Program-made: the position numbers and the translations under genes
Assembly: GCA_007280895.1 (NCBI GenBank)
Contig: QYQN01000151.1
Location: forward strand, 1 to 50,404
Length of the DNA: 50,404 nt
Direction: 5' to 3'
Source: Methylococcaceae bacterium
GTDB taxonomy: Bacteria > Pseudomonadota > Gammaproteobacteria > Methylococcales > Methylomonadaceae
Part shown: positions 45,827 to 50,404 of the stretch, in pieces
How the letters are laid out: each line of letters starts with the position of its first letter
Position numbering within the stretch: the stretch's first letter is position 1
The notes under the pieces: generated by a model
Told to the model about the DNA's origin: nothing
Databases searched by the model: none
Seen by the model: the letters and a program-made list of their open reading frames with translations, nothing else

Positions 45827-46465
45827 CTAACTGACTTTAATGCGTGTTGCCTTAGCCCCTAAACCTAAGCCTAAAATATTTAAGGGATGAATAGGCGAAT
45901 TTGCTTGAGCCATTTCACTATGGCAATCGGCATCTAAGGCATCGTTAAGATGATAGGTTTTGCATAAATCAAATAAATTTGCCATAAGAAAAAAGTTGGA
46001 AACACTAAACTCTTTAAAGCTGTTTAAACCAGTTTTTGGATTAAATAAAACGCTTAGTGCTTGATTATCTTTAGTATTTAATAAATTCTCTTTGCTAAGT
46101 AAGTCGCTTTTATGGTTATCTACTTCGTTAACAATTTCTTCCCACGTTGCATTAAAGCGTTCAACACCACCAAAATAATTGTACACTACATGGGCTGATG
46201 AATGTGCGTTGACATCAATAATATTGGTTTCTGCGGAGGCAAAATCATGCACGGTATTGATATAATTAAAGGCTAAGTGAACGTGTTCTTGATAAGGCAG
46301 ATTACTGGTAATGTCATTGTAATTAATCTGGATCAGGTCATTATTCATGTCGTTTGGGTGCACAAATAATACATCATCAATTAAGTCAATTTCTTTCAAT
46401 AACACGGCACAAATCAAGCCATCTAAATCATTTCGTGTGACCAGTCTATATTTTTTGTCAGTCAT
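45827..46465 (-). CDS. DHH phosphoesterase-related protein, truncated and without the DHH motif
   Basis: YRLVTRNDLDGLICAVLLKEIDLIDDVLFVHPNDM ... HLAFNYINTV ... IIDVNAHSSAHVVYNYFGG resembles the ~300-aa DHH/exopolyphosphatase-like family, but NYI stands at the DHH position and the C-terminal DHHA1 region is absent. Confidence 0.75.
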   Translation of the reverse strand: MTDKKYRLVTRNDLDGLICAVLLKEIDLIDDVLFVHPNDMNNDLIQINYNDITSNLPYQEHVHLAFNYINTVHDFASAETNIIDVNAHSSAHVVYNYFGGVERFNATWEEIVNEVDNHKSDLLSKENLLNTKDNQALSVLFNPKTGLNSFKEFSVSNFFLMANLFDLCKTYHLNDALDADCHSEMAQANSPIHPLNILGLGLGAKATRIKVS

Positions 46466-46677
46466 GCTGCGCTCCTTATGAGATCAAAGTGTTCAGTCCT
46501 GTAATTGAAATAGCCTCAATTATCAGATTGGTTGTTTGTAATGTTTATGTAACAAAGTTCATCATACAGTTAAAGCATAATAAATAAAAGGGAACTTTTT
46601 TATTAAAATCACTATATCATTCCACCGTCCTACTAACGTCCAATAAAAGTTAAAATTTAGTCCTTTTTTCACTAAAA

Positions 46678-49600
46678 ATGTTTATTAAAAACTCAAAAAA
46701 TGACCTTAAAATATTGTTTTTAGGTGATTTTAAAATTATTTTAAAAAATAATGCGATAGCGAGCTTAGCGTATATAAAAATGCGTGCGTTATTGGCGTAT
46801 TTGGTTGTAGAGCATGAGCAAACTTTTACCCGTGATTTTCTTGCTGACCTGTTTTGGGGAAATGAAAACTTGCCTGTGGCGAGAGCCAATTTACGGCGCG
46901 CCTTGTCACAGTTACGTAAATCATTGGAAGTCCCTAGTGGGCAAGTATTATTTGAAGCAACTAAAAATACGCTGCGCTTTATTCCTAATGTATACGTTGA
47001 TGTGCTCTATTTTATGGGTAAAGATTTTGATTTTGTAGATGACCCAGGCTATTTTTTAATTAGCGACGAACAGCGTTCGTCGCTCTATCAAGGTGAATTT
47101 TTGTGTGGTGTGGTGTTACCTGAATGTGAGGTGTTTATGACATGGTTGCAACGTCAACGCATAGTTCATCAGCGTCGAGCTGTTATATTGCTAGAGCAAC
47201 TCACCTCACATTACCAGCAGCTAAAAAATCATCCTAAAGCGCTGCAATTTGCCCTTCGTTTAACCGAAATAGAGCCTTGGAATGAAACAGCCCATGCTTT
47301 AGTGATTATGTTATACGCCTTCGATGGCAACATCAGCTCAGCGCTTCATCAATATGAATTGTGCCGTCAGATTTTAAAAACAGAATTAGATGCCTTGCCT
47401 CAGACGAGTACCCAGCAGTTAATTGCCAGAATTCAACAGCACGGTATGCTGCCCCTTGATGTCAAGGTGGTGCCTGCTATTCCAGCAACAGATACGAGCG
47501 TCATGGCGTTGCGCCAAGTCACGGTGTTGTACCTTGAGTTTAGCGTAGAGGGCTTCGATGATGCAGATGCAGAGGAATCGTTACTTATACTGCAACCCCT
47601 GCACGCACATGCGGAACAGCTGATCAAATTTTATCAGGGCTTTTTGGTGCCTATTCACGGTGGAGGCGTATTGGCCTATTTTGGCTATCCAAATGCTCAG
47701 GAACACGCGGTGCGTAAAGCCGTACACGCCGCCTTGGCAATGGCTGAAAAAAATACAGCTCAGGTTTCGGTAAAGTGTGTTGTGCACACAGGCTTGCTGG
47801 TCAGTAAAGAAAATAGTCAGATCCCTGATATGTCAGGGCAACTTACTAAGCAAACGATGCACTTGCTGAATAACGACAGCACGGCCACGGTTGTCATCAG
47901 CCAAACGAGTTATGATGTGGTGGGGCATTATTTTGACTGCACCTTATTCGGTGAGCGGGCGGTGTTAGGCGCAGCGCGGACTATTTCTTTGTATACCGTG
48001 CATCAAGAAAGCAACGGCTTACAGCCTAGCGTTAGTCACTTAATCCCGCTGATCGGTCGTCAACCAGAGCTGACAAAATTAGTACAGCTTTGGCACGCTG
48101 TGCAGTTAGGTGCTTCGCAAAGTGTGGTGATTGAAGGGGAGGCAGGGGTGGGTAAAACCAGATTGATGACTGCCTTAGTTGCGTATGTAGCAGAAAGTAA
48201 TCATCAAATCTTTATGTTACGCGGTCAACAAGAATTCAGTCAAACGCCCTATTATCCGTTGTTACAGATGTTAAAAGGATGGCTAGGACTCACCACTAAA
48301 ACGACGCCAGAGGTCAGTGTAGCAACATTACACGCGTACTTACAAAAACATGCAACGACCGAGATAGATGAAAATGTCAGCCAAGTTTTAGCAGATTTAT
48401 TTTGTTTATCTGCGTCTTATGAGCTGTCCAAAGAAGCGCGTAGGAAAGTCACCATGTATCAAGCCTATATAGAAAAAATACTGTACCTCGTGTTGCTCAG
48501 GCAGGCGCAGGCGCAAGCAGTCGTCTTTGTTATTGAGGATGCGCATTGTTTAGATAGCGACACCCAGGGTCTACTTAGACGCTTTCATAGCATGGCCACT
48601 AACGGTTTTTTTATGCTCTTTACGGTTCGCACTGGACAGCGCAAAAACGTAAAAAAATTGCCTAACGTGCGTTTGAAATTATTGCCACTTAAGCCGCATG
48701 ATGCGTTTAAGATGCTGTATCACCTTGACAGCACCTTGCCTGAACAAACCGTACAGCGCATTATTGAGCGTGCTGATGGCGTGCCTCTGTATCTTGAAGC
48801 GCTTAGTAAGCAGGCTACAACACAGGCACTGCCAACATCATTGCGAGATAGCTTGGCTGCACGCATTGATGGGTTAGGCAGGGCAAAAAAAACCTTGCAG
48901 TTAGCCGCAACAATTGGACGTGAATTCGATTCCTCGTGGTTGCATTATTGCCGACCGTCATTAAACAATTTAGCCGAAGACTTACAGCATGCGCTAGAAG
49001 CGGGCGTGCTAATTTTAGTTAAAAAAAATACCTATCAATTCAATTATGCCTTAACCCAAGAAGCCACTTATCAATCGCAAACGAAAGCAGATCGGCGTCT
49101 CGTTCATCATGAGCTTGCACTGATGATGCAAAAAAATCTTCCTGAACATGTAACGCGCTATCCAGAGCATATTGCTCAACATTTTTCAGCAGCACAGGCC
49201 AAGCGAGACGCTTTGTGGTTTTGGCTTAAGGCAGGGTTACACGCAACAGATAATTCGGCAAATCAACGCGCCATTGATTATTTTTATGCAGGCTTACATG
49301 AATTAACCACATTGCCAAAAGACCCAGTGCGAGAGCGCATGGAAAGCATCTTGTATACGAACTTTGAACAGTTGCCCGACCATAAAGAAGCCTATATCGT
49401 GTTAAATAATCTTGAAGCGATTTTAGTCAATCATTTAGGCGCAGTCTTATTAACAACCTATGGTTATCGCTGCACAGAAGCGCAGCGTATGTTTATAAGA
49501 GCTTTAGTCTTATGTGAAGAATTAGGGGATCGTAATGGTCGCTTTAAAGCCTTATGGGGACGGTGCTTAGTCAATATTGCACAACATGGAGCCCAAAACT

Positions 49601-50404
49601 CTTTAGCTGAAGTTGAGCAATTAGCGCATGTGGCGGAGCATAATAAACATACTATTCACCAGCAATTAGCCCAGTATGTCAGTGGCTATTGTCATCTACA
49701 GCGTGGTGATTTAAGCCAAGCCGCTAACTTTTTAGAAGCGGCAATGTGCGCTTATCAACCCCACCACCATCAAGAAATGCTGACGTTTTGCAATGAAAAT
49801 ACCTACTTATTAAGTGGCGGTTTATTGATATTAGTGTGGTGGGCGCAAAATAAAAAAGCCCAAGCGCTTCAGATGCACACCTCGATTATGAGTGCTGCCC
49901 ATAATTTACAGCATCCCCCCAGTTACGCAGGGGTGCTGTGTTTAAGTATCGTGTTTAATAGTTGGATGAAACGGTATTTACTGTGTGATGCTTTAGCTAA
50001 ACAGGCGCTTGCACTCGCTAATCAGTACGATCTAGTTTTTACTCAGCAGTTTGTGAAGATTTGGCAAGGCATTCGAGCGATAACAGTGACCAAACCAGAG
50101 GGTGCAGAATCTTTAATGCTATTAATCGATAACCTAGACTGTGAGGGAGGGAGCAGTAATATTATCCCATTACTATGGTTAATTAACAGATTGTACGATC
50201 AAGGGCTTTTTGATAAAGCCTTGACATACATTGATGCCGCCATCGTAAACATAGAGCTTAAGCACGAATATTTATTGGCAAGTGAGGTGTATCGTTTACA
50301 AGGCCAATGTTTATTAATGCAAGCAAACCCTCCGCTGAAACAAATAACTCAAGCGTGGCGCCGCGCATTGCAGATTGCGCAACAACAACAAGCGCACGCC
50401 CTAG
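46678..50404 (+). CDS. SARP/BTAD + class III cyclase-like + AAA ATPase + TPR-like multidomain protein (partial, runs off the window end)
   Basis: Uninterrupted frame from ATG 46678 to the end: MRALLAYLVVEHEQTFTRDFLADLFWG..ARANLRRALSQLRKSLE (SARP N-terminus), BTAD helices, cyclase-like VTVLYLEF..VLAYFGYPNAQEHAVRKAVHAAL, Walker [11 protein letters not shown], Walker B VVFVIEDAHCLD, C-terminal helical repeats. Absent from the ORF track because no stop lies in the window. Confidence 0.9.
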   Translation, partial: MFIKNSKNDLKILFLGDFKIILKNNAIASLAYIKMRALLAYLVVEHEQTFTRDFLADLFWGNENLPVARANLRRALSQLRKSLEVPSGQVLFEATKNTLRFIPNVYVDVLYFMGKDFDFVDDPGYFLISDEQRSSLYQGEFLCGVVLPECEVFMTWLQRQRIVHQRRAVILLEQLTSHYQQLKNHPKALQFALRLTEIEPWNETAHALVIMLYAFDGNISSALHQYELCRQILKTELDALPQTSTQQLIARIQQHGMLPLDVKVVPAIPATDTSVMALRQVTVLYLEFSVEGFDDADAEESLLILQPLHAHAEQLIKFYQGFLVPIHGGGVLAYFGYPNAQEHAVRKAVHAALAMAEKNTAQVSVKCVVHTGLLVSKENSQIPDMSGQLTKQTMHLLNNDSTATVVISQTSYDVVGHYFDCTLFGERAVLGAARTISLYTVHQESNGLQPSVSHLIPLIGRQPELTKLVQLWHAVQLGASQSVVIEGEAGVGKTRLMTALVAYVAESNHQIFMLRGQQEFSQTPYYPLLQMLKGWLGLTTKTTPEVSVATLHAYLQKHATTEIDENVSQVLADLFCLSASYELSKEARRKVTMYQAYIEKILYLVLLRQAQAQAVVFVIEDAHCLDSDTQGLLRRFHSMATNGFFMLFTVRTGQRKNVKKLPNVRLKLLPLKPHDAFKMLYHLDSTLPEQTVQRIIERADGVPLYLEALSKQATTQALPTSLRDSLAARIDGLGRAKKTLQLAATIGREFDSSWLHYCRPSLNNLAEDLQHALEAGVLILVKKNTYQFNYALTQEATYQSQTKADRRLVHHELALMMQKNLPEHVTRYPEHIAQHFSAAQAKRDALWFWLKAGLHATDNSANQRAIDYFYAGLHELTTLPKDPVRERMESILYTNFEQLPDHKEAYIVLNNLEAILVNHLGAVLLTTYGYRCTEAQRMFIRALVLCEELGDRNGRFKALWGRCLVNIAQHGAQNSLAEVEQLAHVAEHNKHTIHQQLAQYVSGYCHLQRGDLSQAANFLEAAMCAYQPHHHQEMLTFCNENTYLLSGGLLILVWWAQNKKAQALQMHTSIMSAAHNLQHPPSYAGVLCLSIVFNSWMKRYLLCDALAKQALALANQYDLVFTQQFVKIWQGIRAITVTKPEGAESLMLLIDNLDCEGGSSNIIPLLWLINRLYDQGLFDKALTYIDAAIVNIELKHEYLLASEVYRLQGQCLLMQANPPLKQITQAWRRALQIAQQQQAHAL

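Follow-up and report, generated by a model that had tools for sequence, protein, structure and literature searches.

The window analysed here is the whole contig QYQN01000151.1 of a methane-oxidising Methylococcaceae bacterium (assembly GCA_007280895.1; 50,404 nt), and it ends inside a large gene that starts at position 46678 of the forward strand. We concluded that the product of this gene is very likely a transcription activator of the SARP-STAND type with a pseudocyclase domain, a TPR-like tail and a predicted regulon linked by a common operator. The comparisons strongly support the predictions that the regulator binds two GRACGNT repeats that are 11 bp apart and followed, 9 bp further downstream, by a -10 element, and that it controls a divergent PggH-like gene plus a few other loci (adhesins, peptide export and sensors in relatives). 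It would probably also control its own gene.

Domain architecture

The gene and its domains have the following positions, all on the + strand:

46678..50404, +, regulator gene SARP-pseudocyclase-STAND-TPR; 1242 of 1267 codons in the window, the remaining 25 codons and the TGA on contig C150
46699..46983, +, OmpR-type winged helix of SARP, residues 8-102 (Trans_reg_C; W60, R73, R74 and R80 invariant in the clade)
47080..47436, +, BTAD, residues 135-253 (Pfam E = 6e-13)
47503..48012, +, class III cyclase homology domain, residues 276-445 (E287, G329, K391 and H395 at the catalytic positions)
48046..48597, +, STAND/AAA_16 NTPase, residues 457-640 (Walker A GEAGVGKT at 487-494; Walker B-like VIED)
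49384..50403, +, TPR-like helical repeat tail, residues 903-1242 (AlphaFold2 model, Foldseek, sub-threshold TPR matches)

The first-pass annotation of this DNA had proposed the order SARP/BTAD, cyclase-like domain, ATPase and helical repeats, and this order was borne out by Pfam, profiles, AlphaFold2 and Foldseek. Of the Pfam searches it had suggested, those for BTAD and AAA_16 (E about 3e-17) passed the cut-offs, but Guanylate_cyc (E = 0.026 for the window protein alone) and TPR did not; Trans_reg_C (E = 1.5e-5) was slightly under its cut-off. Guanylate_cyc was significant in 12 of 17 relatives (best E = 5.8e-8), and a profile of 17 relatives matched the solved class III cyclases CyaB (2.4e-13) and human ADCY10 (about 3e-6). 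When the cyclase domain was modelled alone with AlphaFold2, the predicted local distance difference test (pLDDT) was 85 and Foldseek matched the model to CyaB (6.5e-12). By the profile match and the Foldseek match, the domain belongs to the class III cyclase fold. The concern that BTAD or the cyclase fold might lack any significant match was thus removed.

The N-terminus shows the OmpR-type winged helix followed by BTAD that is typical of SARPs, and the family profile of this part matched EmbR (6e-13, the best sequence match in the PDB) and AfsR (1.5e-11). The ATPase has the P-loop with Walker A and B motifs beside a repeat sensor that is expected for a STAND NTPase (AAA_16, GKT, VIED, helical repeats), and the GK(S/T) of Walker A was kept in 49/49 SARP-fused proteins. 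Helical repeats were visible from residue 903 in the AlphaFold2 model (903-1195 beside the NTPase), and with the full-length model Foldseek found the STAND-TPR protein 6MFV, Apaf-1, MalT (8BOB) and Avs3. These results support a protein of the SARP-STAND type with a STAND NTPase of the AfsR/MalT kind. The earlier reading as a signal-integrating ATPase regulator is supported and the ATPase can be specified as a STAND NTPase.

Reading frame and distribution of the gene

As claimed before, the frame from the ATG at 46678 had no stop through the final base of the window (1242 codons). The window corresponds to contig C93 of a genome in 160 contigs, and its final 141 bp (50264-50404) were repeated exactly at the start of contig C150. 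This looks like an assembly break inside the gene, with an overlap typical of assembly graphs. On C150 the frame continued for 25 further codons up to a TGA at C150:216-218, which is the stop that had been sought beyond the window; the full protein has 1267 amino acids (aa). The sister species (L004/L015) has the orthologue in one piece, with 1268 aa and 81% identity. The flanks were the same in both species: cheB, moeA and a short divergent gene, and a glycosylase-like gene with a DEAD-box helicase beyond. Because the orthologue is uninterrupted and has the same neighbours on both sides, a frameshift or a chance frame was excluded. An assembly artefact or a pseudogene was likewise ruled out by the orthologue, the kept flanks and the ratio of nonsynonymous to synonymous substitution rates (dN/dS, see below). 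The gene of 1267 aa is real and complete.

Close relatives of the gene occurred in 2/20 genus genomes and 13/237 family genomes, and its distribution is therefore sporadic. In one relative (L085, G466:C75) a stop or frameshift broke the orthologue into open reading frames (ORFs) of 515 and 743 aa. The glycosylase-like gene on C150 (L003, 215-889) codes for a uracil-DNA-glycosylase-like protein with a match to UDG family 4 below the cut-off. Its ATG overlaps the stop of the regulator gene (ATGA) both here and in the sister species, and linkage to the regulator was seen nowhere else. The first-pass annotation had also pointed to the adjacent chemosensory locus. We compared neighbours over 16 and then 41 loci and found none in common with the window locus except in the sister species, so a functional link to the chemosensory genes was ruled out.

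The cyclase domain is a pseudocyclase

In the alignment to CyaB and intact relatives, the pair of metal-binding Asp residues corresponded to E287 and G329, the transition-state Asn to K391 and the transition-state Arg to H395. The domain thus has none of the residues that define class III cyclase enzymes (two metal Asp, transition-state Asn and Arg). The proposed cyclase-like domain stood as far as the fold is concerned (profile, AlphaFold2, Foldseek), but its catalytic residues are replaced, and as judged from this alignment the domain is a pseudocyclase.

We compared 96 homologues from Pseudomonadota, 49 of them SARP-fused (48 assessable) and 47 SARP-less. Both metal Asp residues were present in 0/48 assessable SARP-fused proteins and in 39/47 SARP-less proteins (Fisher p = 3e-19, kinship ignored); 43 of the 48 had lost both. 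The combination of domains that had been singled out as noteworthy is thus present, but with 49 SARP-fused proteins in the comparison it is not unique. In a tree of the STAND part only, the well-supported branches meant that at least four changes had to be assumed for the SARP-fused group. Across the four supported pairs that are independent of one another, the Asp pair changed in the direction opposite to the SARP head or remained unchanged, and never changed the same way (p = 0.125). As there were only four such pairs, we describe the link between SARP head and dead cyclase as an association.

The true class III fold raises the question of an active adenylate or guanylate cyclase that supplies the regulator with its product. 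Metal binding by E287 is conceivable, and most SARP-less relatives with this build are intact cyclases. However, the second metal Asp is a Gly, Lys and His stand in for the transition-state Asn and Arg, and at least one metal Asp was missing in all 48 assessable SARP-fused relatives. Activity was rejected on the loss of the four catalytic residues, and we regard it as extremely improbable. The same loss, together with the interrupted gene in G466, could also indicate a decaying remnant without function. This is unlikely, since dN/dS between the window and the sister species was as low for the cyclase domain (0.19) as for the SARP (0.18) and TPR (0.20) parts, the fold was predicted confidently, and many columns of the domain were invariant although the relatives share just 30-37% identity there. 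A dN/dS of 0.19 reflects purifying selection, and we concluded that the pseudocyclase is maintained.

A separate SARP-fused lineage (L095-L102, family f18) has a highly divergent cyclase remnant. Its local neighbours were conserved, by eye tRNA hydroxylase-like and queuosine genes.

Predicted operator and promoter

A search for direct repeats in the upstream regions of 17 family members found 55 seven-base repeat pairs at a period of 11 bp, compared to at most 19 at any other period. The pattern CGTYC-N6-CGTYC was present within 300 bp upstream in 15/21 clade members and in 0/47 SARP-less genes, and was absent upstream in all other SARP-fused lineages. It occurred in 12/20 representatives, where shuffling predicted 0.03. 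In 30 of the 33 sites the repeats were followed by a -10 element TANNNT after a spacer of exactly 9 bp. The sites had been chosen by the repeats alone and include near-copies of one another; all other spacings from 0 to 29 bp had at most 4. Since this -10 element is on the opposite strand, the orientation of the operator was turned round, and the first interpretation, CGTYC repeats activating the regulator's own gene, was dropped. The operator on the promoter strand is probably GRACGNT-N4-GRACG-N9-TANNNT. The general rule for SARPs, as given for AfsR, is repeats 11 (or 22) bp apart with the 3' repeat 8 bp from the -10 element (PMC10936776). The predicted operator agrees in sequence with this rule.

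The following elements were located upstream of the regulator gene in the window:

46626..46641, -, predicted SARP operator GGACG-N6-GGACG, 11-bp period (identical in the sister species)
46611..46616, -, predicted -10 element TATAGT for the divergent gene, 9 bp from the 3' repeat (TATAAT in the sister species)
46651..46656, +, possible -10 element TAAAAT for the regulator itself, 9 bp from the repeats (weaker, AT-rich region)

A -10 element at the fixed spacing on the strand of the CGTYC reading was found only in the window species, in the sister species and at a site on contig C52. The element at 46651-46656 possibly allows self-activation in this species.

The tight motif was present in 5/237 family genomes, each of which belongs to the 13 that have the regulator, and the reversed control gave 0. 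Exact matches to the genus form were confined to the 2 regulator-bearing genomes among 20, and a 31-bp form had 0 matches in 359 phylum genomes. A loose pattern, ANCGTYC-N4-ANCGTYC, was dropped for the tight form.

Several observations weigh against our interpretation of the protein and its operator. The full-length AlphaFold2 model reached a pLDDT of 71 and a predicted template modelling score of 0.45 only. The loose pattern was barely above its reversed control (55 versus 47). Some of the sites at the regulator genes that enter the co-occurrence had already been used to discover the motif, and the independent evidence consists of the additional sites at a distance from the regulator gene and of the absence of the motif in other genomes. 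The repeats touch the start codon of the regulator in many relatives, which suggests autorepression rather than self-activation. The half-site GRACGNT on the promoter strand differs in orientation or recognition from the C-N-T-T-C-A implied for AfsR. Residues W60, R73, R74 and R80, invariant in 21 scorable clade members, correspond to W74, R87, T88 and R94 of AfsR. The backbone contacts W74, R87 and R94 are conserved, whereas the base contacts R92 and T88 are replaced, and the position of the base-reading R92 holds Q, D, H or N in the clade. The replaced R92 is in line with a half-site that differs from that of AfsR.

Predicted targets

The predicted direct target in the window is the short divergent gene:

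45827..46465, -, PggH-like protein of 212 aa, predicted direct target (operator-promoter orientation; conserved in the sister species)

Due to the orientation of operator and -10 element, the site in the window would serve this gene. The first 177 residues of its product matched PggH (7D62, 2e-38), and this was the only match, as no Pfam or NCBIfam model was found. The DHH motif is lost (FDHH to FNY with a gap of two residues) and the C-terminus is short. The product is probably a pseudo-phosphodiesterase that is conserved in two species.

The genome contained two further copies of the 16-mer, one on contig C130 and one on C52; of the two, one is exact and the other differs at a single position. 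The copy on C130 is located upstream of a truncated DUF4347 ORF and an XRE-type gene, the copy on C52 upstream of an ORF of 280 aa. A Big_12 adhesin at C52 was rejected as a target because of its position on the wrong side of the site; the orientation agrees with the 280-aa ORF on the opposite strand. At L153 (8886-9032) a 49-aa N-terminal DUF4347 fragment with an XRE-type gene after it lies right behind three tandem operator repeats, and the fragment looks like a truncated adhesin gene.

In relatives, sites were located upstream of a filamentous-haemagglutinin-like TPS/ESPR adhesin of at least 2705 aa (L203), another ESPR-type gene (L029/L078), a YadA-type adhesin (L018) and a DUF4347 protein (L193). 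The sites in L198 and L030 precede genes for a C39-peptidase ABC exporter and a HlyD protein, in opposite directions, and for a Nif11 precursor of a ribosomally synthesised and post-translationally modified peptide (RiPP). Other sites were found upstream of a SpoIIE response regulator, a LuxR-type response regulator, a hybrid histidine kinase, a PAS-MCP protein, a GGDEF/EAL protein and a hemerythrin; some had no clear target. The predicted targets would share the theme of cell surface, export and signalling.

The genes in L198 (2633-14094) and L030 (2453-2704) comprise a Nif11 RiPP precursor, two C39-ABC exporters, HlyD and a fatty-acyl-AMP-ligase-like protein. They adjoin a SARP-pseudocyclase regulator with several operators present, and are a candidate for a RiPP cluster under SARP control in a proteobacterium. 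In L192 (9413), L194 (7214) and L196 (9257) the operator repeats are conserved beside an ABC-transport lipoprotein-like gene, with a gene for a small metal-binding protein (SMBP) on the other side in L192 and L194. The predicted promoter strand has no clear ORF in these three, perhaps a small RNA, and L196 has no -10 element.

Other OmpR-type regulators also come into question as owners of the repeats, with the SARP gene merely as their target. PhoB-type boxes have an 11-bp period as well, and a site is located in front of the regulator gene. However, the tight motif was confined to regulator-bearing genomes, although PhoB is to our knowledge near-universal in such bacteria; the repeat is not a Pho box, and the -10 spacing fits the SARP rule. 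We consider a PhoB-like owner to be improbable. Foldseek matches to Avs3 and to 6MFV, together with weak Avs2 matches, would also be consistent with an Avs-like STAND sensor against phages instead of a gene regulator. Such a role is very improbable: Avs proteins match the Avs model over their full length and have a nuclease-type effector, but here a SARP DNA-binding and activation domain takes the effector's place, the best PADLOC score was 17 bits and covered the P-loop only, a matching operator-promoter is present, and no defence island was noticed around the relatives.

Comparison with known systems and proposed mechanism

The clade that contains the window protein was supported in the tree and has 22 SARP-fused members, which come from Methylococcaceae, Gallionellaceae, Rhodoferax and others. 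Database names for SARP-cyclase-STAND proteins are generic ("AAA family ATPase"), and we found no paper on such a protein in the open-licence literature. SARP-STAND-TPR proteins (AfsR) and cyclase-STAND-TPR proteins are already known; their combination with a predicted operator and regulon would be the new part.

AfsR of Streptomyces coelicolor (SARP-NOD-TPR, NOD being its nucleotide-binding oligomerisation domain) has the same SARP head, STAND/NOD ATPase and TPR tail, and an operator of direct repeats with an 11-bp period near the -10 element. It differs in having no pseudocyclase between SARP and STAND and in the orientation of the half-site, and the targets predicted here belong to Pseudomonadota and have roles in adhesion, export and signalling. 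EmbR of Mycobacterium tuberculosis (SARP-FHA) shares the SARP fold but carries an FHA domain and has no STAND, cyclase or TPR part. The SARP-less cyclase-STAND-TPR proteins of rhizobia and others (adenylate/guanylate cyclase domain-containing) have no SARP head and are homologous over the whole remainder of the chain, starting with the cyclase domain; most keep both metal Asp residues. The best NCBIfam match was TIGR03903, TOMM system kinase/cyclase fusion (residues 276-1240), which has a kinase head instead of a SARP head; with 276.5 bits against a cut-off of 705.75 bits, the window protein does not belong to it. MalT and other STAND-TPR regulators (Foldseek 8BOB, 6MFV) also combine a STAND switch with a TPR-like ligand sensor, but MalT has a DNA-binding domain of the LuxR type at the opposite end.

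In AfsR the NOD and TPR parts inhibit the SARP part, and ATP binding relieves the inhibition (PMC10936776). By analogy with AfsR and MalT, the STAND and TPR parts of the window protein would keep the SARP head inactive in the resting state. Binding of a ligand at the TPR tail and of ATP would then free or pair the SARP heads, as for AfsR and STAND regulators, and two heads would occupy the adjacent repeats in the -35 region and recruit RNA polymerase, as assumed from AfsR and MalT. The pseudocyclase might, as a guess, serve as a joint for dimerisation or nucleotide sensing between head and switch. We tentatively propose, with considerable doubt, that SARP heads were repeatedly fused to cyclase-STAND-TPR proteins in at least a few lineages of Pseudomonadota. 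The output may have been switched from a cyclic nucleotide to direct gene activation, with the silenced cyclase retained as a joint that regulates by dimerisation or by sensing a nucleotide, and such fusions may have founded dedicated adhesin, RiPP export and signalling regulons.

SARPs are chiefly known as activators of Streptomyces antibiotic clusters. The proteins described here would extend them to methanotrophs, iron oxidisers and other Pseudomonadota, where they form a large SARP-STAND lineage, and the predicted operator, the -10 spacing and the list of targets make this lineage directly testable in cultured relatives. The finding that SARP heads are strictly associated with dead cyclases would be a clear example of how modular signalling proteins switch their output, in which the pseudocyclase would have a measurable role. 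The operator may serve as a handle for finding genes that are switched on together, such as adhesins and a RiPP precursor with its exporters.

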